Shown in pieces: positions 36,185 through 64,000 of a stretch of DNA of 64,000 nt (position 1 is the stretch's first letter; the number at the start of each line of letters is the position of its first letter). The DNA lies in assembly GCF_000012825.1 (NCBI RefSeq), contig NC_009614.1, positions 1 through 64,000 of the forward strand, in the 5' to 3' direction. Source of the DNA: Phocaeicola vulgatus ATCC 8482. Lineage in GTDB: Bacteria; Bacteroidota; Bacteroidia; Bacteroidales; Bacteroidaceae. The position numbers and the translations under genes were made by a program. The notes beneath the pieces were generated by a model that ran no database searches, was not told the DNA's origin, and was given only the letters and a program-made list of their open reading frames with translations.

Positions 36185-36211
36185 TTTTCTTATAAAGTTA
36201 AAAACCGTAAT

Positions 36212-40857: not shown

Positions 40858-40860
40858 TTT

Positions 40861-42444: not shown

Positions 42445-42452
42445 TTCTTTTT

Positions 42453-44990
<2,538 letters not shown>

Positions 44991-45021: not shown

Positions 45022-45029
45022 CAAAGGTA
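45022..45029 (-). promoter_or_regulatory. Sigma-ABfr -7 element of the GH43-CE1 operon
   Basis: The minus strand reads TACCTTTG 55 bp upstream of the operon's first ATG. The -33 region is degenerate, as expected for a promoter that needs an activator. It lies 33 bp from the nearest GTTACAT repeat. Confidence 0.6.
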
Positions 45030-45061
45030 AGGACATTCGCCTTATATCGGAGTGTAACCAT

Positions 45062-45089
45062 GTTACATAGTCCTTTTTCCATGTTACAA
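45062..45089. promoter_or_regulatory. Candidate HTCS operator (two 21-bp-spaced repeats)
   Basis: GTTACAT at 45062-45068 and GTTACAA at 45083-45089, start to start 21 bp, in the 230-bp gap between the GH43-CE1 gene and the HTCS. The same repeat and period occur upstream of the SusCD operon. TGTAAC at 45053-45058 forms an inverted half-site with the first repeat. Confidence 0.55.
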
Positions 45090-45158: not shown

Positions 45159-45166
45159 TATTTTTG
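45159..45166 (+). promoter_or_regulatory. Sigma-ABfr -7 element of the HTCS gene
   Basis: TATTTTTG lies 30 bp upstream of the HTCS start. No clear TTTG -33. Confidence 0.45.
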
Positions 45167-48100: not shown

Positions 48101-49249
48101 TATGCCGAAATCACCGTGACCGACAGCGGAATAGGAATCGCCCCCAAAGAAACAGAACACATATTCGAACGCTTTTACCAGATACGGAATAGCCAAAACA
48201 ACTCAAACATAGGCACCGGTATCGGGCTGCACCTCACCCGCTCACTGGTGGAACTTCATCATGGAGACATCCGTGTAGAAAATAATCCGGACGGACAACC
48301 GGGATGCAGCTTTATCATCCGTATGCCTCTGGGATGCGCCCATCTGCGCAAAGAAGAAATGGAAGCCGACAAAGCTCCTCTCTTCCACACTCCGGCTCCG
48401 GTCCTCCCTGTTCCTTATGAAACCGAGGAAGAAGAAAACGGAAAAACACGAACCAAAACGAAATACAAAGTACTGGTGGTAGAAGACGATGAAGATATAC
48501 GCCGCTATATCTGCCGTGAACTGGCAAGCGATTACCATACCCTGGAAAGCTGCAACGGCAAGGAGGCACTGGAAAGCATCTTCAATAAAACCCCGGACTT
48601 GGTAATAAGTGATGTCATGATGCCCGAAATGGACGGACTTACCTTATGCCGCAAAATAAAGCAAAATGTGAACCTGAACCACATCCCGGTAATACTGCTC
48701 ACTGCCAAGACACGGGAGGAAGACAATCTGGAAGGTCTGGAAACAGGAGCCGACGCCTACATGACCAAACCTTTCCATATAGAGATATTGAGGAAAACGA
48801 CCGCCAACCTGATCCGCAGTCGTGAACGGCTACGCAATACCTATACCGGACAACAGACCCAAGGGGATAAGGTACAACCAATAGAAGTACAGTCCCCCGA
48901 TGACAAACTGATGGAACGAATCATGCGGGTCATCAACGAAAACCTGAGCAACCCGAACCTCACCGTGGAGATGATTACCACCGAGGTAGGCATTAGCCGC
49001 GTGCACTTGCACCGTAAACTGAAAGAACTGACCAACCAGACCACACGGGATTTTATCCGGAACATCCGACTGAAACAAGCGGCAGAACTGTTGTCGAAGA
49101 AACGGTACACCATAGCCGAAGTGGCGGACTTGACCGGATTCACCAATCCCAACAATTTCTCGACCGCTTTCAAGGATCTGTACGGAATGCCTCCCAGCAT
49201 GTACATGGAACAGCATTTGAAACAGGATAAGAATAAGGAAGAGAACTGA
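45197..49249 (+). CDS. Hybrid two-component system sensor/regulator (HTCS), xylan locus
   Basis: A 1,350-residue one-protein two-component system. Order: signal peptide (about 1-20), two groups of Reg_prop blades forming the periplasmic sensor (about 25-680, with repeated GLIWIGT-type motifs), a Y_Y_Y domain (about 690-760), a membrane helix (about 766-788), HisKA with His822 (INISHEIRTP), HATPase, receiver with Asp1139 (VISDVMMPEMDG), and AraC-type HTH (about 1240-1345). Such proteins bind an imported oligosaccharide in the periplasm and activate their locus. It is divergent from one xylan operon, so xylo-oligosaccharide is the likely signal. A second in-frame ATG lies at codon 2. Confidence 0.95.
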   Translation: MMKHTILILFLFLSLLCHGQSYKFFTTDRELSSSLINKIYQDRNGMIWIATEDGLNRYDGAKFITYKHDPENEYSLCHNYVRVLYEDSKGRLFVGTYNGIQLYDPETDSFSARAQWEDGKTFDSNIMSILERRNGEIWVSGNNLCTITITQGKLTAHKLDLPIPTQMTDYMIEDRQHNLWVTQGENGIYRLSVDNKSKHFLKQEKGMTIVDLYEDNYGDIYLATIGKGLLKYNQPAEEFIPILYKGKQNLPIKSICQISQNELCLGTDGKGTKIFNIPKQLITDYPFDNNYLDSGTSKVHSVLKDNAGNLWIAIYQKGVMMIPAQPNSFKYIGYKSINKNIIGSNCITSLCRDHKGILWIGTDNDGIYGITTELKQKVHYAPHDSPSSVPSTVFGLYEDSEHNLWFGSYTNGLGRLDKKTGQCSYLQNLTDKNGNRIQRVYDLVEDQDKRLWIATMGAGLFYYDLKTGQSVYDPKFNAATKKYKWISCLLYAGDNHLYVGTYDGIRCIDLSTDDFKTEEILSRHIIHSLYEDPQGNIWIGNSEGLAEWNPQTQQLKTYTTAHGLSSNAVYAIKGDGQDNLWISTNAGMSRFNLNTHTFSNFYADDGLQGNEFSKNASFADHNGILWFGGTNGITYFNPQEITNPAKKWNVRIIDFYLHDQPIRKGMLSGGKEIINTSVFEARDFHLSHNDNAFSIEFSTRELNNSERITYLYTINNTPWVKLPKGVNRVSFSDLPPGDYHFRIKAEDYLLESDTDEITIHIAPAWWASGWAMLIYALLAVAAVYGIILQMRHRYRIRQEMMQHIHAEQINEAKLQFFINISHEIRTPMSLIISPLQKLMTNDTDHERQKNYRIIWRNSERILRLVNQLMDIRKIDKGQMSLVFRETEMTGFINDLCETFTEQANKKQITLQFHHEGADHLKLWVDPVNFDKIILNILSNAFKFTPEGGSVDIRLRTGKDSTLPKPLQQYAEITVTDSGIGIAPKETEHIFERFYQIRNSQNNSNIGTGIGLHLTRSLVELHHGDIRVENNPDGQPGCSFIIRMPLGCAHLRKEEMEADKAPLFHTPAPVLPVPYETEEEENGKTRTKTKYKVLVVEDDEDIRRYICRELASDYHTLESCNGKEALESIFNKTPDLVISDVMMPEMDGLTLCRKIKQNVNLNHIPVILLTAKTREEDNLEGLETGADAYMTKPFHIEILRKTTANLIRSRERLRNTYTGQQTQGDKVQPIEVQSPDDKLMERIMRVINENLSNPNLTVEMITTEVGISRVHLHRKLKELTNQTTRDFIRNIRLKQAAELLSKKRYTIAEVADLTGFTNPNNFSTAFKDLYGMPPSMYMEQHLKQDKNKEEN

Positions 49250-49720: not shown

Positions 49721-51334
49721 TTATCCTTTCCAATTAAATGGCAGTAAATCGGTGTAATCGTTTTTCTCTTCTCTTTCTTTCTCCTGTACCCTAATCAGCA
49801 CGTCCTGCATCCATAGTTTTGGGTTCACCTTATTTTCCCTACAGCATCCCATCAGTGAAAAGAAAATTGCCGCTGCATGTGCTGCCTCATGTGATCCGGA
49901 GAAGAGCGTATTTTTTCTGTTTAAAGTCAACGGCCTTATAGAACGCTCCACCGGATTATTGTCAATGCAGAACTGTGCGTCATTGACATATCCGGACAGT
50001 TGTTCAAAGCGTGTGTACATATAGAACATGGCCTTGGCAATAGGCGATTTATCGACCGTATGTCCATATTCCTCCTTGCACCATTTTTCCAGTTCTTTGA
50101 TAATAGGGTACGATTTTTCCCGGCGAAGCTTTACCACCGCCTCCCCTTCCAGATGTTCCATTCTGATTTTCTCCTCCACGGCATACAGTCCGCCTATTTG
50201 TCCAAGTGCATGCCTTGCTCTGGGAGGGTCATTTCCTTCCGCTTCCACAAAGTTGCGCCTGACGTGCGCCCAGCAGCACAGATGCAACTTTCCGGGTAGC
50301 GTGTCGAACTTGTCATATACTGCAAAGCCGTCACTCTGTACCACCCGGACCTGTCCTGCCAGCAGTGTGTCTATTCCGCTGCTGCCACGGCCCTTGTGAT
50401 ATTCAAAGAAGGGGGTATGGAACCGGGGCAGATAGAAGTTCCACATATACCCGCGGTGAAGAGCACCGGGCCGGTCGCTTTCAAGTACGGGATGGGGTGT
50501 CTCATCGGCCATGACGTAATAGCTGTCCTTGACCAGTTCACGAAGTTCATTATAGATTGGTTCCAGACGCTGTGCGGCAGCCATCATCCAGTTACTTACG
50601 GTGGAAGGACTCAGATGGATTCCTTCACGCTCAAAGATATCCAGCTGTCTGTGCAGAGGCAGGTGGTCGTAATATTTGGCGGTAGCAATGTGGGCCAGTA
50701 CACTTTCCGAGGCATTGCTGTGGGGATGTGCCATTACGGGCATGGGAGCGGTTATGATACGACCGTCGGCGAGCCGGTATTTAGGACGGATGATGCGTTT
50801 CACATAGAATCGGGCGGGGCTGACAGCATACTGTTCGCTCACTTCCTCTCCCAGCTTCGTCGCTCCCTCCAACGAAAGGCCTTCCGGCATGGGAATGATA
50901 ATCTCCTCACGGGGAAGGGACGGGTCGATGGGCTTACGGGCGTGGGGAGTGATCTTTTTCGTGAAGCTTTTACGGAAACGATTGTAGCCATTCTCCGATG
51001 TGACGGATTTCCCAGCGGTTTTCTGTTCTTCCGCTACCGGGTCATTGACATCGGACGGAGACTCGAAACAGATGCTCAGCTGGCCGGCATCTTCGGGAAG
51101 ATGACGTTTTTCACTGGATTTACCCCATAAACGGCGTGTCAAGTCAGCCAATTTCCATCTCAGATCGGCAATGACGGCTGTACAGGCCGAGATTTCTTCG
51201 ACCTGGCGGGAATACTCCTGCAAAGAGGCTTCGTATTTTCTCTGAAGTTCCGCATGCTCCTTTTCAAGGCATTCATGTTCCTTGCGCAACTCTTCGTACT
51301 CTTCCAAAGTAAGGGTAATAACCGGTTCTTTCAC
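49721..51334 (-). CDS. IS66 family transposase (TnpC)
   Basis: A 537-residue transposase. N-terminal coiled-coil (about 8-55, rich in Glu and Arg), a basic linker, the zinc-finger-like and central IS66 domains (LHRQLDIFEREGIHLSPSTVSNW), catalytic segments VMADETPHPVLE and VVQSDGFAVYDKF with the two Asp residues, and a C-terminal segment NNPVERSIRPLTLNRKNTLFSGS with the Glu. It appears complete. Confidence 0.94.
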   Translation of the reverse strand: MKEPVITLTLEEYEELRKEHECLEKEHAELQRKYEASLQEYSRQVEEISACTAVIADLRWKLADLTRRLWGKSSEKRHLPEDAGQLSICFESPSDVNDPVAEEQKTAGKSVTSENGYNRFRKSFTKKITPHARKPIDPSLPREEIIIPMPEGLSLEGATKLGEEVSEQYAVSPARFYVKRIIRPKYRLADGRIITAPMPVMAHPHSNASESVLAHIATAKYYDHLPLHRQLDIFEREGIHLSPSTVSNWMMAAAQRLEPIYNELRELVKDSYYVMADETPHPVLESDRPGALHRGYMWNFYLPRFHTPFFEYHKGRGSSGIDTLLAGQVRVVQSDGFAVYDKFDTLPGKLHLCCWAHVRRNFVEAEGNDPPRARHALGQIGGLYAVEEKIRMEHLEGEAVVKLRREKSYPIIKELEKWCKEEYGHTVDKSPIAKAMFYMYTRFEQLSGYVNDAQFCIDNNPVERSIRPLTLNRKNTLFSGSHEAAHAAAIFFSLMGCCRENKVNPKLWMQDVLIRVQEKEREEKNDYTDLLPFNWKG

Positions 51335-51402
51335 TGTACATCCACTTTTTATTATGTGGCAAAGTTATCAAAATAAAACTGCACGGCTTATAGAATGGGG
51401 AA

Positions 51403-51912
51403 TTACTTTTCAACTGTTTTCCGATACTTTTTAACAGTAAGCAGCTCATTCAGGCGATTCCAGGAAATTTGAAGAAAATCCTTCTTCCGTTCCTCCTTTT
51501 TCAAGAGGAAAGAACCGCGATTCAGACGACGGCATTCCAGACGGTATTCGTCGTCGCACCGATAAAGGATATGCAACCTGCTACGGGAGCGGTCGGGAAA
51601 AATATGACAGCTCTGCTCTGACACGCAGGAACCTGTGTGTCGGATGACCTCGCCACAAAGACCGTCAATACCTTTATGGAAATTACAACCTTGGGGATAA
51701 AGGTAATAAGACCAAAAAGGACTGCTGCGGAAAAGGCCAAGACCTAAAGGGAGAAGTAGGTCCTGAGGGGAATGGATACCAAGGCTGGAAGACGAAACTT
51801 TATAACGACGGCCGCCATCAAATATGAAAAGAACAGAATCAAAATGGTTAGACTCGGAAAAGAGAGTACGTAGTTTATCACTTTCGCTAGAAAATTCTAA
51901 TACTGAACACAT
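51403..51912 (-). CDS. IS66 accessory protein TnpB-like, with N-terminal extension
   Basis: A 169-residue protein. Its second half (from YYLYPQGCNFHKGIDGL to RLNRGSF) matches IS66 TnpB, which is normally about 115 residues. The first 70 residues are an extension of unknown origin and could be the remains of the small ORF A of other IS66 elements, which is otherwise missing here. The gene sits 68 bp upstream of tnpC on the same strand. Confidence 0.75.
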   Translation of the reverse strand: MCSVLEFSSESDKLRTLFSESNHFDSVLFIFDGGRRYKVSSSSLGIHSPQDLLLPLGLGLFRSSPFWSYYLYPQGCNFHKGIDGLCGEVIRHTGSCVSEQSCHIFPDRSRSRLHILYRCDDEYRLECRRLNRGSFLLKKEERKKDFLQISWNRLNELLTVKKYRKTVEK

Positions 51913-52179: not shown

Positions 52180-54120
52180 TCAATCTCTGTATCCCGGATT
52201 CTGATAAGCGTCTTTTTCCTCCTCTGTCATTTCCATGCCATCCAACTGTCCTTGTGGGATAGGACGGAGATAATGGAACGCTTCGATGGTACGGCTGTAA
52301 GTCTGCGGATTGTGATCACCCTTGCCTCCACAAATCACGTAACTGTCAGCATATTCGTTCCATTTCTGAGTACGAACCAAGTCGAACCAACGATAACCTT
52401 CGCCATAAAACTCGCGGCTGCGTTCATCCAGAATATAGTTGATGTCAATGGTTGCCGGAGTGGCGGCTGTCATTTCAGCACTGAAATCACGATCCACTTC
52501 CTTGTACTCGGCATTGCTGTAAGTCCAGCGACCGGCACGGGCACGAAGCACGTTCACCAGGTCACGGACAGACTTGCCGGCTTGTGTGGCAGCTCCTTCT
52601 ACGGCAGCTTCGGCAGCAACCAGATAAAGTTCGGAGAATTTGGCGATGTTATACGGACGGGTACTTCCCGCATTGGGCTGTCCTGCTCCGGAGCCGTTGT
52701 CTGTACGATACGGGCCGAGTTTCCAAAGACCGGGATATACATAACGGCCTACCGCATCCAGTCCCAATACCCAGTCGGGACGACCGGGCAACGTACCTGC
52801 TCCCAGATTGCTTTTAGAACCTTCTCCTGCATAGTCTATCTTATCCATATCCTGGAATACGAAAGAGAATATAGGTTCACGTTCTTTCACTTTCATTCCG
52901 TTGGCATTGGTCACCGATTCCCAGTTCTGTCCGGCTGTAGACCAGTTGCCGCGATAAACAGTAGTAAAAGTACCGTCGTAACGGGAGTCGTTCACCTTGT
53001 CGGCAAACGTCTTGGTAAACACACCCAACGGAGGAGCCATACGGGTCCAAGGGCGGCCATAACACTGCTCGGCAATACGGTTGATGACAGCCTGATTATC
53101 AGCCGAACGCGCGTCGGTATAGTTCCAGTTCATCATCCATCCGGCAAAGTTATCGGGAGCACCACCGCCACCGTAGCTCAGGCTGCCACCATTATAATAC
53201 TCGTCTTCCTGCGTATGGTCTGCATAGAGCAGGATTTCCATGTTACGGTCATTGGGTCCGGCATTCACCATCCAGAAGCTTTCCTGCAAGCCGAAAGGAC
53301 CGGGGTTCTCGATAGCAGTAACCGCCACATCGTATGCCTGCTGGAAGTACCATGCCGCATCGTGTCCGTCGGGGTCCGTACGCTGGCACTCGGGATAAGT
53401 AGGAATGTTATTCGGATTCTTCAGCCACCAGGCATAAGTCAGATAAGCCTTTGCCAAGTACAGGCGGGCAACGGTCTTGGTCACTCCACCCGTCACACGA
53501 GGATTAGCGGGCAAGTTCTCGATAGCGGTCAGCAAGTCGGGGAAGATGGCCTTGGTGTACACTTCGGGCACGGTATTGCGCACGGAGGTACGTGAAGGAG
53601 TGATATTGAACTTCAGTTCGCCGGAACCTAGGTCCAGAGGCACTCCGCCGAAGGTCTGCACCAACAGGAAATAATCGAACGCACGGAAGAAGCGGGCTTC
53701 GGAAACCAATGATTCATTGACTCCTACTTCGGCACCGTTCTCTATCACTCCGTTAGCGGTGTTGATGTTCGAGAAAGCGGTTCCCCACAAGGCGTCGGAA
53801 CGGCAAGTCGTGGCAGTCAGGTTGCCTACTCCGGACAGGTCGGCATCCTTGAAGTTACCATCGGCACTCCATCCCCAGGTTGCCTCGTCGGTTCCCGTCA
53901 GACAGGAATTATAATAATAAGCTTGTCCGTAAATATAGCGCAAGTGTGCATACATAGAGGTCACACCGCCTTCCACTCCCTTTTCTGTCTTAAAGAAAGT
54001 AGGATCATAACTGCTGCGCGGCTGCTCGTCCAGAATGTCTGAACAGGATGCTGTCAGGAACAAAGCCAGTGCGGCTGTTCCCAAAACTCTTATTTTTGAA
54101 AATATAGGTTTCATAGTCAT
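52180..54120 (-). CDS. SusD/RagB-like outer-membrane glycan-binding lipoprotein
   Basis: A 646-residue lipoprotein (lipobox LTASC, Cys26) of the RagB/SusD family. It has the N-terminal tetratricopeptide helical part (RFFRAFDYFLLVQTFGGVPL) and the C-terminal ending PIPQGQLDGMEMT...YQNPGY typical of SusD. It caps the SusC barrel on the cell surface and helps bring in glycans, here probably xylo-oligosaccharides. It starts 8 bp after susC. An in-frame second ATG lies at codon 3. Confidence 0.95.
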   Translation of the reverse strand: MTMKPIFSKIRVLGTAALALFLTASCSDILDEQPRSSYDPTFFKTEKGVEGGVTSMYAHLRYIYGQAYYYNSCLTGTDEATWGWSADGNFKDADLSGVGNLTATTCRSDALWGTAFSNINTANGVIENGAEVGVNESLVSEARFFRAFDYFLLVQTFGGVPLDLGSGELKFNITPSRTSVRNTVPEVYTKAIFPDLLTAIENLPANPRVTGGVTKTVARLYLAKAYLTYAWWLKNPNNIPTYPECQRTDPDGHDAAWYFQQAYDVAVTAIENPGPFGLQESFWMVNAGPNDRNMEILLYADHTQEDEYYNGGSLSYGGGGAPDNFAGWMMNWNYTDARSADNQAVINRIAEQCYGRPWTRMAPPLGVFTKTFADKVNDSRYDGTFTTVYRGNWSTAGQNWESVTNANGMKVKEREPIFSFVFQDMDKIDYAGEGSKSNLGAGTLPGRPDWVLGLDAVGRYVYPGLWKLGPYRTDNGSGAGQPNAGSTRPYNIAKFSELYLVAAEAAVEGAATQAGKSVRDLVNVLRARAGRWTYSNAEYKEVDRDFSAEMTAATPATIDINYILDERSREFYGEGYRWFDLVRTQKWNEYADSYVICGGKGDHNPQTYSRTIEAFHYLRPIPQGQLDGMEMTEEEKDAYQNPGYRD

Positions 54121-54128
54121 GCTTTCAT

Positions 54129-57100
54129 TTAGAATGTTAAGTTAATACCGAATAAATAGTTACGGGTGGACGGTGAGTTAGTACCTACTGTCAGGAATCG
54201 TTTCTGAATACCTTCTGTCACAGCTACATTCTCGTTACCGTAAGAGTTGGTTTCGGGATCCAGTCCGGTTTCTTTATGGAAAGGAGAACAGATAATGAAC
54301 GGATTCTGCACGGACAGGTAAGCACGCAGGCTCTGTATGCCCATGCGGGTCAGCCAAGCCTGCTTCTCGAAGTTGTAGCCCAGCGTAATGTTGCGTACTT
54401 TCCAGTAAGAAGAGTCAAAATAGCCCAATGTGCTTCCGTATTTCGGATTGTCACCACTCTGGATACCACCCGGTTTCGGGTACTTGGCCCCCTTGTTCTC
54501 CGGTGTCCAGTAGTCTACATCCACTTGTCCGCGACGACCGGTCAGCATATTCAGGTAACCGTTGCTGTGGTGCAGTGTACTGATCAGCTTGCCTCCGCAA
54601 CGGAAGGCGGTGATAACGTTCAAGTCAAAGCCTTTATAGGCCACGCGAGTGCTGAAACCTCCTTGGAATTTAGGTTCCAAGCTGATAATCTGACGGTCTT
54701 CGGGACCAATGGCGCGGGTCGGCTTGCCGCTGGCATCACGATCACCGGTATATTTCACTTTGATCATACCTTCATTGCCACCCGGCTCCAGAATGTCCAA
54801 GTATTGGAAATCGGGATCATCACTGTTCCATAAGCCTACTTTTTCATAGTCGTAGATACAGTCGATGGGATGTCCTACAAACCAGTTGTTCGCTTTATCA
54901 TCTTTGGAACCCGAAGCCAGTTCGGTAAGTTTGTTACGGTTGGCAGACAGGTTGAGGCTTGCCTCCCATGTCCATCCGTTATGGTTGTCCAGAATCGTTC
55001 CGTTCAAGGTAAATTCAAAACCTTTATTTTCCGTCTTTCCCACATTAGCCATATAGCTGCTTACTCCCGAAGTGGAAGGAAGGCTTACGCTTTGCAGCAA
55101 GTCGGTGGTTTTCTGAATGTAATACTCAAATGTACCGGACAGGCGTCCTCTTAGCAAGGTGAAGTCCAGACCGAAGTTCCATGTAGAAGAGTATTCCCAA
55201 CCCAATTCGGCATTAGGCAGTTCGGATACATAGTAACCGGTGACATAGCCAGTAGGACCGAAGTTATAAGGACGGGTTGCCAAGCGTCCCCAGGTCTTAT
55301 AAGGATCAACAGCCTGGTTGGAGGTCTGTCCGTAACCTACACGCAGTTTCAGGATATCTATCCAGTCCACCTCGTCCATAAACTCTTCCTGACGAATGTT
55401 CCATCCTGCCGATACGGCGGGATAAGTGTGCCATTGGTGTCCCTTTGCCAAACGTGAAGAAGCGTCGGCACGTACAGTCGCCATCAACATATAGCGATTG
55501 TCGTAAGTGTACATCACACGACCCATCCAAGACATCAGACCGCTCTTCTGATAGTTCCAGTTGTCGGGGTTCACCGTAATGGTGCCTTCCGCACGCCCGA
55601 TGTTATAGAACTGGAAATATTCGGCAGGAATATCCCGTCCGGCAACGTCCGAACGTGTATAGACAGTCTGTTCGGCAGAGTACATACCGACAACATTCAG
55701 CTGGTGCTTTCCAAAAGTACGGTCGTAAGTCAGCAGGTTCTCCACAGTCCAATTAGTCGTTTCCGAGTGGTTCAGCGAAGCGGTGGACGGAGTGTCTGCC
55801 GTAGTGCTGTTGATGCCTTCGCCAGTGAACGATCCACCTTTAGTAGAACGATAGTTCAAACCCAGGTTGACACGGTATTTCAAACCTTCCATCCACGGGC
55901 ATTTCACTTCGGCAAACAGGTTATTGTACGTACCGAAGCCTTCGGTCTTGCTCAGCCAACTGTCTTCCAATTCTTCCACAACGCCTCTGGTCAGTACAAA
56001 TGACTCATCCTGACTGTTGTATTTCACGGTACGTTTCAATGTGCCGTCCGCATTATAGGGGTCGGCGATAGGAGACATGGAAAGTACACCATACAGTCCG
56101 ATATTGGAACCTTTGGTGACGTTATAGTTGGTATTGTTCACCAGTCCGAAGCGGAAATATTTTCCCACACCCTGATCGAAAGAACCACGCAGAGAGTAAC
56201 GGGTATAGTTCTGAGTAGGAATGACACCTTGATCCTTATAGTAAGCCGCGCCAAAGCTATAGCCTCCACCGTTGGTACCACCGGACACGCTGACATCGTG
56301 GCTGTTTACATAACCGTCTCGTAACATCAAGTCCTGCCAGTCAGTATCCACATCGTCCGACTCGTCCACCGAATTCTCGAACTTGCCTGCTAGTTTACGC
56401 ATTTCGGCAAACTTGCTACCGTTCATCATGGGATATTTGGAAAATACCTTCTTCATACCTGCATACCCATTGTAAGTAAACCGGGCGGGACTACCCTGTG
56501 CCCCTTTGTGTGTAGTGATCAGGATAACACCATTGGCACCACGCGAACCGTAGATAGCAGTAGAGGATGCATCCTTCAAAATATCCATGCTCTTGATGTC
56601 ACCGGGGTTGATATCGGACAAATTACCCATAAAGGGGATTCCGTCCAATACCACCAACGGGTCGTTACTGGCGTTCAACGAACGGGTACCACGGATACGG
56701 ATCTGCATGGAAGCACCCGGTGCGGAAGAAGTCTGCGACATATCCACACCTGCCACGCGGTTCTGCAAAGCGTATGTAATATTGGTGGCAGGCATCTCAC
56801 GCAGCTTCTCTCCGCCTACCGATGCAATAGATCCGGTCACATCACTCTTGCGGGCGCTACCGTAACCAATCACCACCACTTCTTCCAAAGCTTTGGAATC
56901 TTCCTTCAATGTAATCTTTAAAGAACTTTTTCCCGCTACCGAGATTTCCTCGTTCTTGTAACCGACAAAACTCACCACCAACACGGCGTTTTTCGATACA
57001 TTCAATGCAAAGTTACCATCAAAATCGGTAATCGTACCGTTGGTAGTGCCTTTTTCCAAGACACTGGCTCCGATGATGGCTTCACCACTTGTGTCCTTTA

Positions 57101-57200
57101 CTACACCTTTTACCATCACGCTCTGTGCAAATGCCCACAAAGGAATGAGACAGAATAGAAGCATCAGCCCCACCGGCCTAAAATTCATAGCATTTTTCAT
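54129..57200 (-). CDS. SusC/RagA-family TonB-linked outer-membrane transporter
   Basis: A 1,023-residue transporter with a signal peptide (about 1-26), an N-terminal carboxypeptidase-like domain (about 28-105, VKGVVKDTSGEAIIGASVLEKG), a TonB-box region at EVVVIGYGS, the plug (TSSAPGASMQIRIRGTRSL then LVVLDGIPF), and a barrel to the terminal Phe. It has no STN domain, as is usual for HTCS-regulated SusC proteins. It is the oligosaccharide importer of the xylan locus, paired with the following SusD. Confidence 0.96.
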   Translation of the reverse strand: MKNAMNFRPVGLMLLFCLIPLWAFAQSVMVKGVVKDTSGEAIIGASVLEKGTTNGTITDFDGNFALNVSKNAVLVVSFVGYKNEEISVAGKSSLKITLKEDSKALEEVVVIGYGSARKSDVTGSIASVGGEKLREMPATNITYALQNRVAGVDMSQTSSAPGASMQIRIRGTRSLNASNDPLVVLDGIPFMGNLSDINPGDIKSMDILKDASSTAIYGSRGANGVILITTHKGAQGSPARFTYNGYAGMKKVFSKYPMMNGSKFAEMRKLAGKFENSVDESDDVDTDWQDLMLRDGYVNSHDVSVSGGTNGGGYSFGAAYYKDQGVIPTQNYTRYSLRGSFDQGVGKYFRFGLVNNTNYNVTKGSNIGLYGVLSMSPIADPYNADGTLKRTVKYNSQDESFVLTRGVVEELEDSWLSKTEGFGTYNNLFAEVKCPWMEGLKYRVNLGLNYRSTKGGSFTGEGINSTTADTPSTASLNHSETTNWTVENLLTYDRTFGKHQLNVVGMYSAEQTVYTRSDVAGRDIPAEYFQFYNIGRAEGTITVNPDNWNYQKSGLMSWMGRVMYTYDNRYMLMATVRADASSRLAKGHQWHTYPAVSAGWNIRQEEFMDEVDWIDILKLRVGYGQTSNQAVDPYKTWGRLATRPYNFGPTGYVTGYYVSELPNAELGWEYSSTWNFGLDFTLLRGRLSGTFEYYIQKTTDLLQSVSLPSTSGVSSYMANVGKTENKGFEFTLNGTILDNHNGWTWEASLNLSANRNKLTELASGSKDDKANNWFVGHPIDCIYDYEKVGLWNSDDPDFQYLDILEPGGNEGMIKVKYTGDRDASGKPTRAIGPEDRQIISLEPKFQGGFSTRVAYKGFDLNVITAFRCGGKLISTLHHSNGYLNMLTGRRGQVDVDYWTPENKGAKYPKPGGIQSGDNPKYGSTLGYFDSSYWKVRNITLGYNFEKQAWLTRMGIQSLRAYLSVQNPFIICSPFHKETGLDPETNSYGNENVAVTEGIQKRFLTVGTNSPSTRNYLFGINLTF

Positions 57201-57241: not shown

Positions 57242-58978
57242 TTATTTTAAGGTAGCATACATGCCTATCGTTGTTCCAGTAAAGCCTCCGGCAGTGGCCG
57301 TTGACAGATACCCAGCGTCCACATTCCTGCACAACACGTACCACACACCTTCCTGGCGAGCATAGTAGAAATCATAATGTGTTCCGCGCGAAACCACCTT
57401 CAGGTCGGTAAGCACTCCTCCGTCGTCCAAGCGAACGGAAGCCAGCACCTTACTTTCCCCATCGCCTATCTGCCTGAGGGAAATACATTCACCTTGATCA
57501 TCCCTGCCTACAGCTAGGAAATATTGATGCTTTTCGTCCTTGAACAACAATATGCCCGCTTGCTCCGCCTTGCTCTGCGGACAGAACAACATACGTGTGC
57601 TGCATTCGAACTTATGATGCTGCAACCGGCGGCATATAAAAGCCGGCACCTTCTTTTCGGAAGCACTGACTGAATCACATTTCAAAGTGAGATAACCCGG
57701 AGTCTGGGAAAGCGAGTAAAGTCCGGTAGCAGGAGCACGCAAAGTCATCCATTCCATACCCAATGTTTGTCCGTCGAAACCGTCATTCATTTCAAAGTTT
57801 CCGAAGGTGGCAGATTCGTCACGCTTCACTCCTTCGCGGCGAACAATGACTGGCACCAGATCATCCCCCTGCGTCATATAGGGGAAACCATCCTCACTCC
57901 ACTTAACGGGCATCATAAAAGTCTCACGTCCTAAATTCTCGAACGTGTTGTTTATGGGACGGCAAGCCAGAAAGACTGCCCACCAATCCCCTTCCCGGGT
58001 TTGAACCAAGTCGGCATGTCCAGCGCACGTCACCGGATTAGGACGCTCCGCATCCAACTGACGCTGGGTCAGAATAGGGTTGTTCTTCCACGGTGTGAAT
58101 TTGCCCGTCGGAGAATCACCACGGAAAATCACTTCCGAATGCCATCCGGCTGTTCCACCCTCGGCAGACATCAAGAAGTAGTTCCCGTTTATTTTATAAA
58201 GGTGCGGACCTTCAATCCAGATGGGCTTGTCCTCCGGACGAGCTCCCTTGTTCACCAGAATCTTGCGCGGCCCCACCGTCTTGTCCGCATTCACATCAAA
58301 TTCCTGCACACGGATGGTACGATGTCCGCTGTATTCAGGCTTGTTGTCCGGCGCGTCATCATTATTGACAAGGTAGGCCTTCCCATCTTCATCGAAAAAG
58401 AAAGAGGGATCAATGCCTGTCACTTCGGGCAACATAATAGGATCAGACCATTCGCCAAAAGGATCTTGTGTCTTCACAAAGAAGTTTCCAACCCCTACAT
58501 TGGTAGTAACCATATAATAAGTCTTGTTATGCGGGTTGTAGGATATGGCCGGGGCAAAAATCCCTCCACTTACGTGTTGCCCCTCCATGTTGACTAATTG
58601 AGAAGGACGATTCAAGATATGCCCCACCTGCTTCCAGTTCACCAAGTCCTTGCTGTGGAAAAGAGGCACACCCGGATAATAAGTAAAGGTGGAAACAGCC
58701 AGAAAATAATCACCTTCACCATTGGTGCAAATGCTGGGATCGGAATACCATCCCGGCAGAATGGGATTATAAAAATAATCATCTCCCGGAAGCGGATTGG
58801 AAATATAGACATCATCCTCACCTTTATAATTAAAGTAATCGAAAAGAGCGACAGACTTTCCTACAACTGGCAAATCATTTCCTTTCTTGATCGAACTACA
58901 TGAGGTAAAAGAGGAGCCCAGCACCCCTAAAGCGATCAGCACGCCCGACCATCTTTTCAGCTTTTGTTTTTGTTTCAT
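57242..58978 (-). CDS. GH43 lipoprotein (beta-xylosidase/arabinofuranosidase)
   Basis: A 578-residue enzyme with a lipoprotein signal (lipobox SFTSC, Cys27), so it may sit on the cell surface. GH43 catalytic residues are Asp80 (GWYSDPSI), Asp190 (TGIDPSFF) and Glu256 (IWIEGPHL). A C-terminal beta-sandwich (about 385-578) resembles that of exo-acting GH43 xylosidases. The open frame extends to 59149, but the ATG at 58978 is preferred: it starts the signal peptide and lies 48 bp from a -7 element. It heads the GH43-SusC-SusD operon; susC follows after 41 bp. Confidence 0.9.
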   Translation of the reverse strand: MKQKQKLKRWSGVLIALGVLGSSFTSCSSIKKGNDLPVVGKSVALFDYFNYKGEDDVYISNPLPGDDYFYNPILPGWYSDPSICTNGEGDYFLAVSTFTYYPGVPLFHSKDLVNWKQVGHILNRPSQLVNMEGQHVSGGIFAPAISYNPHNKTYYMVTTNVGVGNFFVKTQDPFGEWSDPIMLPEVTGIDPSFFFDEDGKAYLVNNDDAPDNKPEYSGHRTIRVQEFDVNADKTVGPRKILVNKGARPEDKPIWIEGPHLYKINGNYFLMSAEGGTAGWHSEVIFRGDSPTGKFTPWKNNPILTQRQLDAERPNPVTCAGHADLVQTREGDWWAVFLACRPINNTFENLGRETFMMPVKWSEDGFPYMTQGDDLVPVIVRREGVKRDESATFGNFEMNDGFDGQTLGMEWMTLRAPATGLYSLSQTPGYLTLKCDSVSASEKKVPAFICRRLQHHKFECSTRMLFCPQSKAEQAGILLFKDEKHQYFLAVGRDDQGECISLRQIGDGESKVLASVRLDDGGVLTDLKVVSRGTHYDFYYARQEGVWYVLCRNVDAGYLSTATAGGFTGTTIGMYATLK

Positions 58979-59026: not shown

Positions 59027-59034
59027 CAAATATA
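59027..59034 (-). promoter_or_regulatory. Sigma-ABfr -7 element of the GH43-SusC-SusD operon
   Basis: The minus strand reads TATATTTG 48 bp upstream of the start codon. The -33 region is weak, consistent with an activator-dependent promoter. Confidence 0.55.
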
Positions 59035-59086
59035 GAAAGTGTCGCCGAATATAAATTCTCTGCATGATACACGCATCTTTCGTAGA

Positions 59087-59135
59087 GTTACATCTTGCTT
59101 CAAACGTGTTACATGAATCTTTACTTGCGTTACAA
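59087..59135. promoter_or_regulatory. Candidate HTCS operator (three 21-bp-spaced repeats)
   Basis: GTTACAT at 59087-59093, GTTACAT at 59108-59114 and GTTACAA at 59129-59135, exactly 21 bp apart. A degenerate copy (GATACAC) lies at 59066, in the same phase, 32 bp from the -7 element, matching the 33 bp seen in the other xylan operon. Confidence 0.6.
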
Positions 59136-59209: not shown

Positions 59210-59266
59210 AAACAGACCGTTTGCAAGTTCCGGACAATGAACATAATTTCTGCAAACGGTCTGTTT
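59210..59266. terminator. Hairpin between the two GH43 genes
   Basis: Perfect 16-bp stem (59210-59225 with 59251-59266) and a 25-nt loop, with TTTATAT on the minus-strand 3' side. It lies 62 bp after the upstream GH43 stop and probably ends the transporter-GH10-GH43 block. The 349-bp gap 58979-59327 holds this hairpin, the repeats and the promoter listed. Confidence 0.6.
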
Positions 59267-59327: not shown

Positions 59328-60299
59328 TCAGACAGATTCTATGGTCTTTATTTTCCCTTCCGCATCATACTCCAATTCGCATACCTTTAGGCTACGCAAC
59401 CAAGTGGTTCCCCCCGAAGGGACACAATCGTGATGAAACAGATACCATTTTCCTTTGTATTCTACAATGGCATGATGAGTAGTCCAACCTACCACAGGCT
59501 GCAAAATAACCCCTTGATAAGTGAACGGACCATACGGATTATCTCCTGTGGCATAGCAAAGCAGATGAGTGTCTCCCGTAGAATAAGAAAAATAATATTT
59601 CCCGTTGTACTTGTGCATCCATGAAGCCTCGAAAAAGCGACGCGCATTGTCACCGGCACTCAACGGATGTCCGTGTTCATCCAGAATAACCAAAGGCCGC
59701 GGCTCTTCGGCAAACTGAAGCATATCGTCCGAAAGTTTTACCACACGTGAAGGCAAAGCCGGTTCACCATCAGCCGGAAAAGCCGCCCACTCCAATGCCT
59801 TGTTGTTGCGATAACGCTGAAGCTGTCCACCCCATAAACCGCCGAAATACATATAATAGTTCCCATTACCATCATCAAATACCGCCGGATCTATACTGTA
59901 GCTTCCACGCATGGGATCGGGCTGGGGAATGAACGGCCCTTCGGGGCAATCGCTCACCGCCACGCCGATACGGAAGATGTCGTTCCGGTCTTTCAATGGA
60001 AAATACATATAATAGTTCCCGTTTTTACAGGCCACATCACAATCCCACAACTGACGCCCGGCCCAAGGGACATCCGAAACTTTCAGTACGACTCCGTGAT
60101 CAGTCACTGTTCCGTTCATCACATCTTCTGTAGAAAAGACATGATAGTCACACATGTCAAAATGATCACCATTGTCATTCTCCTCCACTCCGCTCTCGCG
60201 ATCATGAGAAGGATAAATGTAAAGCTTTCCGTCAAAAACATGTACAGCAGGATCTGCCATATAGTCTCCGGGCACCAAGTATCTGAATTTCTTTTCCAT
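59328..60299 (-). CDS. GH43 beta-xylosidase, probably cytoplasmic
   Basis: A 323-residue single-domain GH43 enzyme. Catalytic candidates are Asp16 (DYMADPAVHV), Asp137 (SYSIDPAVF) and Glu224 (RRFFEASWMHK). There is no signal peptide (MEKKFRYLVPGDYMADP begins the fold directly), so it probably acts in the cytoplasm on xylobiose or small oligosaccharides brought in by the neighbouring transporter. It lies 12 bp after the GH10 gene. Confidence 0.9.
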   Translation of the reverse strand: MEKKFRYLVPGDYMADPAVHVFDGKLYIYPSHDRESGVEENDNGDHFDMCDYHVFSTEDVMNGTVTDHGVVLKVSDVPWAGRQLWDCDVACKNGNYYMYFPLKDRNDIFRIGVAVSDCPEGPFIPQPDPMRGSYSIDPAVFDDGNGNYYMYFGGLWGGQLQRYRNNKALEWAAFPADGEPALPSRVVKLSDDMLQFAEEPRPLVILDEHGHPLSAGDNARRFFEASWMHKYNGKYYFSYSTGDTHLLCYATGDNPYGPFTYQGVILQPVVGWTTHHAIVEYKGKWYLFHHDCVPSGGTTWLRSLKVCELEYDAEGKIKTIESV

Positions 60300-60311
60300 A
60301 TCGTTACGTTA

Positions 60312-61433
60312 TTAAATGTTATGTTTTCCTATCAGTTCTTCCACAAAAGGTTTCGGCTGGCAATCACGGTCGAACAATAAAGGGTAATCCACACGTCCGG
60401 GCACAGGGAAATTATTCTTCCATGAGTCACCGTCCGTCACCCCCCACACTGTCACACGGGTAATGATATCCGAATGTTTCAGGAAAAGACCGAAAAATTC
60501 CTTCATCCGGTTATTCCATGCCACAGACACAGAGTCGGGCAAACCGTCGGGATAGGGATTCAAGGATTGTTTATAAGACACCGTATCCGAAATATTGGCT
60601 CCCATCCGTGCCGTGGGCAATGCACTCATATCCCATTCGGTTACCATCACCTTTACTCCGGTAGCTGCAAATGCCAGTATACTGGCTTCAAATTCGGACA
60701 CTGACGGATAATCCATTCCCATGTGTCCCTGCATACCTACCGCGTCGATGCGCAGTCCACGGTCTTTCAGCATCTTTACCAATTCGACTACTTTGTCACG
60801 CTTAGCCTTCCCGTCCATGCCATAATCATTATAGTAAAGTTCGGCTTCCGGATCCGCTTCATGAGCATACTGAAAAATAAGCGGGATGTACTCTTCGCCT
60901 AATATCTCGTAAAAAGGAGATTTACGCCAGGAGCCGTCCGATTCAATGGCTTCATTCAATACATCCCAGCCCTTTATACGCCCTTTATAGTGCGTCACAA
61001 TAGTCTGGATATGTTTTTTTATACGCTCCTTCAAGATGTCGGCACTTACTGTTTTTCCTTGTTCGTCCACACAGAACCAAGGTGCCAGCTGTGAATGCCA
61101 GATAAGGCAATGCCCGATAACAGCCATATCGTTCTCCTCGCCAAAACGAACCAACCGGTCCGCTTCCGTAAAATCAAAACGGTCTTCCTCCGGATGAATC
61201 ACTTCGCATTTCATGCAATTCTCGGCCACAATGGAATTAAAATGACGTTTTACCACTTTCGAGGCGTAAGTATCCTGACCTGCTGCCTGACGTACATTCA
61301 ACGCTACCCCCATCAGAAACTTGCCCGAAGCTGCTTCCTTCAGCGAAGGACCCGGCTCGACCTTCCGGTCATTGCCGCAAGCGGCCATTAATCCGGCAAT
61401 GGCAGCCAATAATGTCACATATCTTATTTTCAT
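60312..61433 (-). CDS. GH10 endo-beta-1,4-xylanase lipoprotein
   Basis: A 373-residue endo-xylanase with a lipoprotein signal (lipobox LMAAC, Cys19). The (beta/alpha)8 barrel keeps the family catalytic pair: acid/base Glu161 (WDVLNEA) and nucleophile Glu266 (VMVTEWDMS), plus the GHCLIWHSQ segment near 107-115. It cleaves the xylan backbone at the surface or in the periplasm. The IS110 recombinase ORF starts 212 bp upstream, in opposite orientation, so the link to the transporter gene may be broken. Confidence 0.95.
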
Positions 61434-61474
61434 TGTATAATTTTTAATTATTATATTTTTGCATAAACATTCAA

Positions 61475-61645
61475 CATCAAAGTGTGGAATAAGGCTGAGT
61501 TTTCATTAGTCAAAAAGACCGTGTAGTATGTTTTACCCCACACTTTATACATCAGAAACCGGATAGTTCAATGGGCTTTTGAGACCCCGCATTCGCAATG
61601 ATGGCTCACGATGTACAGATGTTGTTTTAATAAATCATTCAGACT
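61475..61645 (+). ncRNA. Candidate IS110 bridge-RNA region
   Basis: The 5' non-coding region before the IS110-family recombinase. It contains an inverted repeat AAAGTGTGG (61479-61487) with CCACACTTT (61538-61546), separated by 50 nt, and smaller hairpin potential further on. IS110-group elements encode a bridge RNA in this position with a target and a donor loop. The true ends of the RNA and of the element cannot be fixed from this copy alone. Confidence 0.35.
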
Positions 61646-62611
61646 ATGACTTACGTTGGTATTGATGTCAGCAAGGTGACTTTCGTTGTTGCCTATTCGT
61701 CTGTAAAGACAAACAAGACGAGAACATTCAAGAATACCGTAAATGGCGTTCACGAGTTCGTCCAAACTATTTCAGCATCCGAACATAATTGCGTGCTGGA
61801 AGCTACGGGCAATTACAGCGCGTTACTCGTTTACCTGCTTTCAGAGGCAGGCATTACCATCAGCCTTGAAAATCCGTTGAAGATAAAGAACTTCGCCCGT
61901 GTCATGCTCACCGTTACCAAAACGGATGAGATTGATGCACGCCTGATAGCACTTTACGGAGAGAAGATGCAACCTGCGCCATACAAACTTCGCAGTGATG
62001 CAATCCTTGTCCTCAAGCAGAAACGGACGGTGCTGCGCCAACTCAAGAAGCAACTTGTAGCCACACGCAACCTCAAAGGCTCGATGGAGGTCCTTCCATT
62101 CTTTGACCCCAAATGCAAGAAAACCATCGAAAAGACGATTACATTTCTTGAAAAGCAAATCAAAGAGATGGAAGAGGAACTCGCTTCATTGGCACAAGGT
62201 GAATACAAGAAACAGATGGACCTGCTCACCTCCATCAAAGGCATCGGTGTCACGCTGGCAGCTCCGCTTATTGTAGCCACCGGCAGATTCTCTTACTTTG
62301 ATAATGCCAAGCAACTGACCCGCTACTTGGGCTTGTCACCTACTTACCAACAATCCGGTACGTCAGTCAATGTCAAAGGCCACATCAACCGAAACGGGGA
62401 TTCAAGCCTCAGAAGCCAACTTTATGTAGCCGCATTCTCATCGCTCAGGTGCAATACCGAGTGTAAGGCATGTTTCGACCGTCTCAGATCTAACGGCAAG
62501 CCCGGCAAGGTGGTGGTTATTGCGGTCGCCAACAAACTTGTGAGGCAAGCCTTCGCTGTCGTCACGCAAGGGAAACCCTATGTCGATGGATTCAAATCCG
62601 AAAAGCCATAA
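61646..62611 (+). CDS. IS110 family transposase (DEDD recombinase)
   Basis: A 321-residue recombinase. The N-terminal RuvC-like domain shows Asp7 (GIDVSK), Glu52 (LEATGNYS), and Asp94/Asp97 (TKTDEIDA), the DEDD set of the family. The C-terminal transposase_20 domain has ATGRFSYFDNAKQLTRYLGL and a candidate catalytic Ser237 (QQSG). Target choice in this family is directed by a bridge RNA. The ORF is intact and oriented against the surrounding xylan genes. The element has no simple terminal inverted repeats that I can see, as expected. Confidence 0.92.
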   Translation: MTYVGIDVSKVTFVVAYSSVKTNKTRTFKNTVNGVHEFVQTISASEHNCVLEATGNYSALLVYLLSEAGITISLENPLKIKNFARVMLTVTKTDEIDARLIALYGEKMQPAPYKLRSDAILVLKQKRTVLRQLKKQLVATRNLKGSMEVLPFFDPKCKKTIEKTITFLEKQIKEMEEELASLAQGEYKKQMDLLTSIKGIGVTLAAPLIVATGRFSYFDNAKQLTRYLGLSPTYQQSGTSVNVKGHINRNGDSSLRSQLYVAAFSSLRCNTECKACFDRLRSNGKPGKVVVIAVANKLVRQAFAVVTQGKPYVDGFKSEKP

Positions 62612-62678
62612 CAGCTCCTGCGGAGGGAACGCCATGCGGCAAGGGACTGAGCACACAGCCCCGACGAGCTTTTCATGC

Positions 62679-62710
62679 ACGATAACTTGCATGATTATGC
62701 TAATTATCGT
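62679..62710. other. Imperfect palindrome downstream of the IS110 recombinase gene
   Basis: ACGATAA (62679-62685) pairs with TTATCGT (62704-62710), with an inner GCAT/ATGC stem. It lies between the recombinase stop and the transporter stop. It may belong to the right end of the element or be part of the transporter's 3' end; the sequence does not decide. Confidence 0.3.
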
Positions 62711-62781
62711 TAACCGTATTCAGTTTTTATATTATAGTTCATATTACAAAGTTTTTAAGGTAAATAACTTGTTCTTTTTCA

Positions 62782-64000
62782 TTAATAACCGGCCTTACTG
62801 CGACGGTCAGCAAGTTCCGCCTGCATCTGTTCGTTGTATTTTTTTGTAATAGGATAGAAGCATAAGGCAGCTACTCCCATTCCAAATATCATAGCCGGAA
62901 TCAGACTGGAGGAAAGTACAATCCCCCTTATAGCCGTACCGCTTTGCTCTGCCCCGATACCGGACACATACCCAAATCCTGAAAGCAGAAACCCTAGGAT
63001 GGCCCCACCGATACCCAGCCCGGCCTTCAAGGCAAAAACTACACCAGCAAACACAAAACCTGTGGCGCGACGGTAATTTTTATATTCTGAATAGTCGGCT
63101 ACATCGGCAATCATCGCCCACAACAAAGGTACAGTCGGCGCGTATGCCAGACTCTTCAGGAAATTCAATACAAACATCGTTTCCACATCCGCTTTTCCCG
63201 GAAAATAGAACAAAGCTGTAAAAATGGCAGTAAGTGAGAGGCAAACAATAAAAACGCGTTTCTTACCATAACGGTTTGCCAAAAAGCCGGACAAGAAAAT
63301 CACCCCAAAGAACTGGACAAGTGCTCCCAACATATTAAATACTCCAAATCCTACCTCGTATGCCTTATCGGAAGAATTGACTACCAGCCCGAAAGCATTC
63401 AACACAGCATACCCCGCGCTGCCATCTGTTTCCATTGCCACTAATCCCAGACGGTCAAGAAAGGCATACAATGCTCCGGCATCCACATAATTCTCAAAAT
63501 AATAGTTCATGGCACTACCCCACATGGCAAGCGTAATAAAAATGAAAAGCGTAAGTATGAACATAGCCCGCCAAGGAGCACTTCCAAATACATCCTTTAT
63601 ATCCTGAAGCGTATCTGTCTTTTGACTGGCAGGCGGCTCTATGCGCTCACGAGTTGAAAAGAAAGTAATGACCAGAAAAACGAACCCGATACAAGCGAAC
63701 AAAGAGATAGTACATAACCAGCCATGCGCTTTGTCTCCACCATCCGAAAACTTGCTTACCAAAGGGAGCGTAAGTCCCTGCACCACAAACTGGGCAATGG
63801 TAGCCGCCACAAAACGAATGGAAGTGATACTGGTACGTTCCTTTATATCACCGGACATCACTCCGCCCAAAGAAGCATACGGCGTATTGTTAAAAGAATA
63901 AAGGCTCATCAGCAAGGTATAAGACAACGTAGCATACAATGCTACCAGCCCTTTATCTTCAATGCCCGGATTATAGAAAGCCAACACATAGAAAACCATG
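62782..64000 (-). CDS. GPH-family (MelB-like) MFS sugar transporter, partial
   Basis: The C-terminal 405 residues or so of an inner-membrane transporter; the start lies beyond the window end. About ten membrane helices are visible. The segments YASLGGVMSGDIKERTSITSIRF and MIADVADYSEYKNYRRATGFVFAG are hallmarks of the glycoside-pentoside-hexuronide:cation symporters (family 2 of that group). In xylan loci these carry xylose or xylo-oligosaccharides across the inner membrane. It is upstream of GH10 on the same strand, with the IS110-family recombinase gene now between them. Confidence 0.9.
   Translation of the reverse strand, partial: MVFYVLAFYNPGIEDKGLVALYATLSYTLLMSLYSFNNTPYASLGGVMSGDIKERTSITSIRFVAATIAQFVVQGLTLPLVSKFSDGGDKAHGWLCTISLFACIGFVFLVITFFSTRERIEPPASQKTDTLQDIKDVFGSAPWRAMFILTLFIFITLAMWGSAMNYYFENYVDAGALYAFLDRLGLVAMETDGSAGYAVLNAFGLVVNSSDKAYEVGFGVFNMLGALVQFFGVIFLSGFLANRYGKKRVFIVCLSLTAIFTALFYFPGKADVETMFVLNFLKSLAYAPTVPLLWAMIADVADYSEYKNYRRATGFVFAGVVFALKAGLGIGGAILGFLLSGFGYVSGIGAEQSGTAIRGIVLSSSLIPAMIFGMGVAALCFYPITKKYNEQMQAELADRRSKAGY

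Follow-up and report, generated by a model that had tools for sequence, protein, structure and literature searches.

Which protein reads the short direct repeats that stand, at exact 21-bp intervals, before a GH43-SusC-SusD operon of Phocaeicola vulgatus ATCC 8482, and could the same sites coordinate the several operons of the xylan locus in which they lie? HTCSs are a major class of switch for the fibre-digesting gene clusters of gut Bacteroides, but to our knowledge operators have been tested for few of them, and for few is it known how they activate the unusual TAnnTTTG promoters. We analysed a window of 64,000 nucleotides (the whole stretch examined, positions 1 to 64,000 of contig NC_009614.1), starting from an original prediction, made from its letters alone, that the repeats are a candidate operator of the adjacent HTCS.

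Background

Motifs have been predicted for 16 of the 36 HTCSs of B. thetaiotaomicron, all of them direct repeats with a mean distance of 21 bp, and the motif sequence varies between HTCS groups (Ravcheev et al. 2013, PMC3878776). As presented in the portions of that article available to us, the predicted operators consist of two direct-repeat sites on one face of the DNA, at an average centre distance of 21 bp, and are located upstream of operons of the HTCS-bearing PUL, in all of which the sites described here resemble them. Unlike the pairs described there, ours carry the sequence TGTAACAT, belong to the setting of a xylan HTCS, form arrays of three or four slots in register with the -7 element and include a weak promoter-proximal copy. 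SusR-type operators are likewise direct repeats upstream of SusC/SusD operons, but their centre distance is 67 or 77 bp (PMC3878776) against 21 bp here, which sets the present arrays apart from that type.

Receiver-output fragments of BT4124 and BT4663 bind the promoters of susCD homologues in gel shifts (PMC11253607); these are other HTCSs and other promoters than ours, and we found no mapping of half-sites in the available portions of that article. The -7 consensus is TAnnTTTG (PMC7366714). Literature searches, which covered articles as distinct from their supplements, found no report of HTCS half-sites being in register with the -7 box and none of arrays of three to four slots, and a search on the Prevotella regulator XynR found no operator sequence. 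As far as these sources go, a direct repeat of about 21 bp is known as a predicted HTCS motif (PMC3878776), and the promoter register and the four-slot array were not found in print.

Repeat arrays at three xylan promoters

Upstream of the 59-kb operon, three heptamers lie in the same orientation exactly 21 bp apart, at 59087-59093 (GTTACAT, slot 2), 59108-59114 (GTTACAT, slot 3) and 59129-59135 (GTTACAA, slot 4); read toward the genes, on the minus strand, they are ATGTAAC, ATGTAAC and TTGTAAC. A degenerate copy, GATACAC (GTGTATC toward the genes), occupies slot 1 at 59066-59072, also on the minus strand, and the predicted -7 element of the promoter is TATATTTG, a TAnnTTTG box at 59027-59034 (minus strand). 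The original prediction had described this array as upstream of a SusCD operon, which is right as to the operon and needs amending as to its first gene: a GH43 (57242-58978) comes first, followed by the SusC-like transporter (54129-57200) and the SusD-like protein (52180-54120), all on the minus strand.

Between the HTCS gene and the other xylan operon stands a second occurrence, a pair of direct repeats on the minus strand, again exactly 21 bp apart, made up of GTTACAT at 45062-45068 (slot 1) and GTTACAA at 45083-45089 (slot 2). The -7 element here is TACCTTTG (45022-45029, minus strand), and the genes read from this promoter (34247-44966, minus strand) encode a GH43-CBM6-esterase, a GH43, a GH115, a GH67 and an SASA-type esterase, their operon status being inferred from tight same-strand packing. 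On the other side of the pair is the gene of the proposed regulator, the HTCS (45197-49249, plus strand; two-component propeller repeats, HisKA/HATPase, a receiver and an AraC-type HTH_18 domain), with its own -7 element, TATTTTTG (45159-45166, plus strand), 74 bp from the nearer half-site centre. The half-site core, aTGTAACAT, is near-palindromic, and successive half-sites have an A-rich box between them, on the gene strand.

Within the window, the exact pattern GTTACAW-N14-GTTACAW has 3 matches, compared with 0 in 100 dinucleotide-preserving shuffles. A genome-wide scan for such pairs, proposed along with the original prediction, recovered only these 3 matches in the whole 5,163,189-base genome, none of them outside the locus, and 0 in the backward-read control. 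The relaxed pattern GTWACA-N15-GTWACA shows no raw enrichment in the same genome (7 matches vs 9 for its control), so this count is uninformative and the argument rests on position: the 7 matches fall in four places, of which three (45062, the 59087 array and 64494) are all within 20 kb and the fourth, at 1035386, is inside an ORF.

The match at 64494 belongs to a third candidate operator just past the window end (slot 1 at 64453, further copies at 64494, which is 494 bp past the window, and at 64515; genome positions). It stands before the MFS sugar transporter gene of the same xylan cluster (62782-64000, continuing to genome position 64320, minus strand), the first gene of a third target operon, to which GH10 (60312-61433) and GH43 (59328-60299), together spanning 59328-61433 on the minus strand, are assigned as downstream genes by synteny with G008, a related genome with a 98% identical HTCS. 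Seventeen base pairs, ATGATACACGCATCTTT (59064-59080), are common to the 59-kb and 64494 operators, and the GATACAC within them starts exactly 32 bp from the TAnnTTTG start at both 59 kb and 64.5 kb; on account of this common stretch and equal distance we take the copy at 59066, originally noticed as a degenerate fourth repeat, to be a real, weakened site. Repeat spacing is equal at the three promoters, and the spacer sequence differs. Three xylan promoters thus bear the repeat pattern, beside one HTCS (45197-49249).

Register between half-sites and the -7 box

A constant phase relative to the -7 elements was part of the original prediction, and the distances bear it out: measured start to start on the minus strand, TAnnTTTG lies 33 bp from the 45-kb slot 1 (45062 to 45029) and 32 or 53 bp from the first two 59-kb slots (59066 and 59087 to 59034), corresponding to 35, 34 and 55 bp from the half-site centres at 45062, 59066 and 59087. 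Over 65 distinct places from the genus and B. oleiciplenus, the distances from the proximal half-site centre to TAnnTTTG peak at 34 (8 places), 35 (5), 55 (7), 75 (12) and 76 bp (8), with 0.065 expected per bin and 0 to 2 in each of the remaining bins. For other genera, 22 loci were found by the pattern TGTAACAT-N13-TGTAACAT (46 matches vs 8 in the control over 299 genomes, as summed rows). Most of these places are without a TAnnTTTG in range on a given side; the forward distances obtained are 34, 34, 35, 35, 53, 55, 75 and 75 bp, and the reverse ones 35, 55, 55, 75, 76, 103, 125 and 126 bp.

Counted after removal of near-identical contexts, the boxes that fall in slots 34/35/55/56/75/76 number 31 out of 46 within the genus and 14 out of 19 beyond it (nominal P 3e-14), figures to be read with the knowledge that the bins were set on genus data, that the outside-genus count was done after the outside distances had already been seen and that nominal P values overstate independence because related promoters share geometry by descent. 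The 19 include the B. oleiciplenus places of the genus distance set, whose boxes (74, 77 and 100) are misses.

Control words were scanned in the same DNA. TGTAACA itself has 56 of 90 boxes in the slots (5.3 expected) and TGTATCA 12 of 22, as against 0 of 37 for words of the same composition (ACAATGT 0/13, TCAATGA 0/9, TTGACAA 0/8, TACAATG 0/4 and AGTAACT 0/3) and 0 of 3 for TGTCACA. Three further words exceed expectation, namely TGATACA (the reverse complement of TGTATCA; 6/17), TGCAACA (4/9) and TGAATCA (3/10), and we read these as probable degenerate copies of the half-site, slot-1 copies of such spelling being among those that occur.

The weakness of slot 1 is a recurrent trait. Among 33 non-redundant promoters, a set that excludes any whose two halves both read GTTAC toward the box, the strong pair occupies slots 1-2 in 12, slots 2-3 in 10 and slots 3-4 in 11 (one of the 11, at a contig end, without printed sequence). 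For promoters whose strong pair begins at slot 2 (n = 10) or slot 3 (n = 11), the best extra match between -115 and -13 falls exactly at -34, with means of 5.0 and 6.1 of 8 and z values of 4.4 and 5.3, respectively, and the second-best extra match of the slot-2 group, at -97, coincides with slot 4; in the 12 slot-1 promoters no extra slot is prominent. The slot-1 copy is frequently a weak one, such as TGTATC or GGTATC; weak copies of this kind retain the G, the central A and the C, together with an A-rich box 8-11 bp upstream.

Conservation in related genomes

Conservation at orthologous loci, which the original prediction had offered as a check, holds for part of the relatives: a GTWAC pair was found in 10 of 24 locus groups with related HTCSs (own locus excluded), and no noncoding GTWAC pair was present in the DNA examined from the other 14, five of which have HTCSs about 54-57% identical to ours. 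G008 and G027 (HTCS 98% and 96% identical) retain the exact pair. Of the 34 loci listed with up to 400 bp upstream of the HTCS gene, 27 have no strong pair and 7 have one with a score of 11 or more out of 12, namely our own locus, those of G008, G027 and B. oleiciplenus, and three from remoter members of the genus; for two of the 34, less than 400 bp of DNA was available. A universal marker of this HTCS the exact pattern is not, as 80 related-HTCS loci contain 1 exact pair and even the relaxed pair is missing from the 14 groups above, and that use of it was rejected. The possibility that GTAACCATGTTAC (45055-45067) is an inverted repeat was also rejected, its left arm not being conserved in G008 and G027.

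In B. oleiciplenus, whose HTCS is 53% identical, one GTWAC pair lies before the HTCS gene at -131 and another before SusC. The copies before SusC are strong at 98 and 77 bp, whereas those at 56 and 35 bp are weak and in register. Six genomes of genus g3, picked for the motif, have a pair at most 450 bp upstream in 9 of the 14 HTCS matches listed, with sequences taken for 12 of them, and pairs upstream of orthologous genes occur in G271, G208 and G183, which were picked for the motif. In several g3 genomes, five loci (L191, L192, L193, L197 and L198, at ~1480-1560) show a TGTAACAT pair with spacers such as TTTATCCCC..., followed by GGTACACATAGCATAGCA-like repeats; these TGTAACAT/GGTACACATAGCATAGCA arrays, with no -7 box in range, are a different element that shares the core.

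The period itself is well marked around relatives, where relaxed noncoding pairs at 27 loci (L143-L169) number 25 at 21 bp, 10 at 20, 6 at 22, 3 at 31 and 0 at any other period from 12 to 32, in counts that take both strands, so that near-palindromic places count twice. A second set of 8 loci has 4 relaxed pairs at period 21 and 4 at period 15. Two of the groups that are without a GTWAC pair have repeats of other sequence in register, and in both the first helix-turn-helix of the HTCS is changed as well: in G026, the -7 box of the GH43 is preceded at 77 and 56 bp by AAGTCACCT/AAGTCACAT, and in G037 (contig 51) three TGTATCA copies stand at about 75, 55 and 34 bp on the SusC side. These two cases are a suggestive hint that the operator site and the HTCS protein may change together.

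Which regulator would read the sites

The confinement of the exact pair to one locus and the recurrence of its phase in other genera lend support to the candidate named by the original prediction, and we consider it highly probable that the AraC-type output domain of the neighbouring xylan/xylo-oligosaccharide HTCS uses the repeats as its operator half-sites. Half-sites of this family are bipartite and directional, their two contact boxes lying roughly one helical turn from each other. In the main competing explanation, some other xylan- or pentose-responsive regulator would bind as a dimer on each near-palindromic ATGTNACAT, the proximity to the HTCS being incidental. In its favour are the near-palindromic core and the variation of the central base between A and T. 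The boxes in slots that face GTAAC vs GTTAC number 23 vs 3 in the genus and 7 vs 5 outside it, so that outside the genus either central base faces the promoter, as the competing explanation would have it, and a strict direction set by the core's central base was rejected there. The A-rich box between strong half-sites is nevertheless on the gene strand in all three central-base classes (A content 0.65, 0.62 and 0.64); it is found 8-11 bp to the 5' side of the proximal strong core and is weak on that side of the distal one (0.34-0.39 A), an arrangement that fits a directional AraC-type site in which each half-site may own a box. Further evidence against a separate dimeric regulator is the closeness of the sites to relatives of the xylan HTCS in other genomes, and the head-to-tail arrangement at 21 bp, which is the published layout for HTCSs (PMC3878776).

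Other HTCSs of the same genome point the same way. PF12833 has 57 matches in it, 21 of them in frames of at least 1290 aa that were taken as HTCSs by length only. At the 20 such loci other than our own, promoter-anchored repeats give 22 offset matches at lag 21 (from 5 promoters) and 18 at lag 22, with at most 5 at any lag besides these, and free noncoding repeats peak at 22 (10), with the 3 at lag 21 not above lag 18. The repeats at these loci differ in sequence and agree in their spacing of 21-22 bp, from which the spacing appears to be the common trait and TGTAACAT the letters of this particular HTCS, and which again argues against an unrelated regulator; taken together, we regard that explanation as unlikely. 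Repeats of 21-22 bp with sequences of their own near promoters were seen at L275 (12261), L280 (14510 and 7890), L271 (8068) and L282 (15075), the L280 repeat TTGTCCACC standing before a 1069-aa ORF.

Far less room is left for the array serving the HTCS gene alone, with the enzyme operons under some other control. The 74 bp between the 45-kb pair and the HTCS -7 box, kept at the same value in B. oleiciplenus, would agree with such autoregulation, but the arrays at 59 and 64.5 kb stand a long way from the HTCS gene and in register with enzyme or transporter promoters, and B. oleiciplenus has its second array before SusC, which makes this explanation very improbable; that the HTCS controls its own gene in addition is possible. 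A chance or slippage origin, i.e., a functionless short tandem array, draws on the exact pair being common in the genus (77 matches vs 37 in the control over 61 genomes, as summed rows), by which single matches in other genomes can be chance, but was rejected, and is barely credible, given the shuffles, the restriction to one locus in the genome search, the same spacing with different spacers at three promoters and the fixed -7 register across taxa.

A model of activation and its reach

If the HTCS is the protein that reads these sites, their geometry suggests how it might act. Half-sites repeated head to tail every 21 bp, or two helical turns, would seat HTCS subunits next to each other along the same face of the DNA, and the array is locked to the -7 box, with slot 1 centred 34-35 bp upstream of TAnnTTTG and further slots about every 21 bp. 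Xylan-derived oligosaccharides would be the signal; the HTCS, once phosphorylated, would occupy the strong upstream slots and bring a further subunit to the weak slot 1, where, just upstream of the promoter, that subunit could contact or otherwise help RNA polymerase. Activation would be cooperative by virtue of slot 1 being weak and the slots beyond it strong. One HTCS might in this way turn on three operons, namely GH43-SusC-SusD, GH43/GH115/GH67 and MFS-(IS110)-GH10-GH43.

Control of separate operons by one regulator has been described in B. xylanisolvens XB1A, where the PUL 43 HTCS BXY_29350 is needed for the expression of two PUL operons and also controls a GH67/GH10/transporter cluster in trans, the same kind of gene set as in the present locus (PMC4855328). 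We found no operator sequence for BXY_29350 in the available portions of that article, and arrays of the present type are a candidate cis element for cross-control of this kind.

A register as sharp as that of the half-sites to the -7 box shows which bases to mutate. It suggests that a subunit sitting directly upstream of the promoter brings about activation, and it allows HTCS targets to be predicted from sequence by rule, those elsewhere in a genome included. A broader generalization, tentative and rather less than even in our estimation, is that the HTCS promoters of gut Bacteroidota follow one rule, with up to 4 half-sites every 21-22 bp locked to the -7 box, a weak promoter-side rung filled only cooperatively and letters that differ per HTCS. 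Were it true, the targets of HTCSs could be read from sequence by register alone.

The surrounding locus

From its gene content, we infer that the present locus is BVU_0037-0043 of B. vulgatus ATCC 8482, which has been credited with growth on linear xylo-oligosaccharides (PMC9599597). Two insertion elements interrupt it. IS66-type transposase genes (49721-51912) lie between the HTCS gene and susD, and the HTCS and susD matches of G008 are only about 630 bp apart. An IS110-type element (61646-62611; insert roughly 61434-62742) is located directly upstream of the GH10 start codon, between MFS and GH10-GH43, and in G008 an ORF sharing the 3' flank of the MFS gene directly abuts GH10. There is no TAnnTTTG box reading toward GH10 between 61434 and 62800, and given this and the IS110 insert, GH10 and GH43 may in this strain have lost part of their link to the promoter under HTCS control.

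Between the stop of this GH43 (59328) and the 59-kb array, an inverted repeat, AAACAGACCGTTTGCA / TGCAAACGGTCTGTTT with a 25-bp loop (59210-59266), is probably a terminator that shields the 59-kb promoter. In the HTCS itself (45197-49249), receiver residues 1161-1164 are NHIP; most HTCSs have S/CHIP in the receiver (84% S or C at the first position), and this position has been tied to autoinhibition (PMC11253607).
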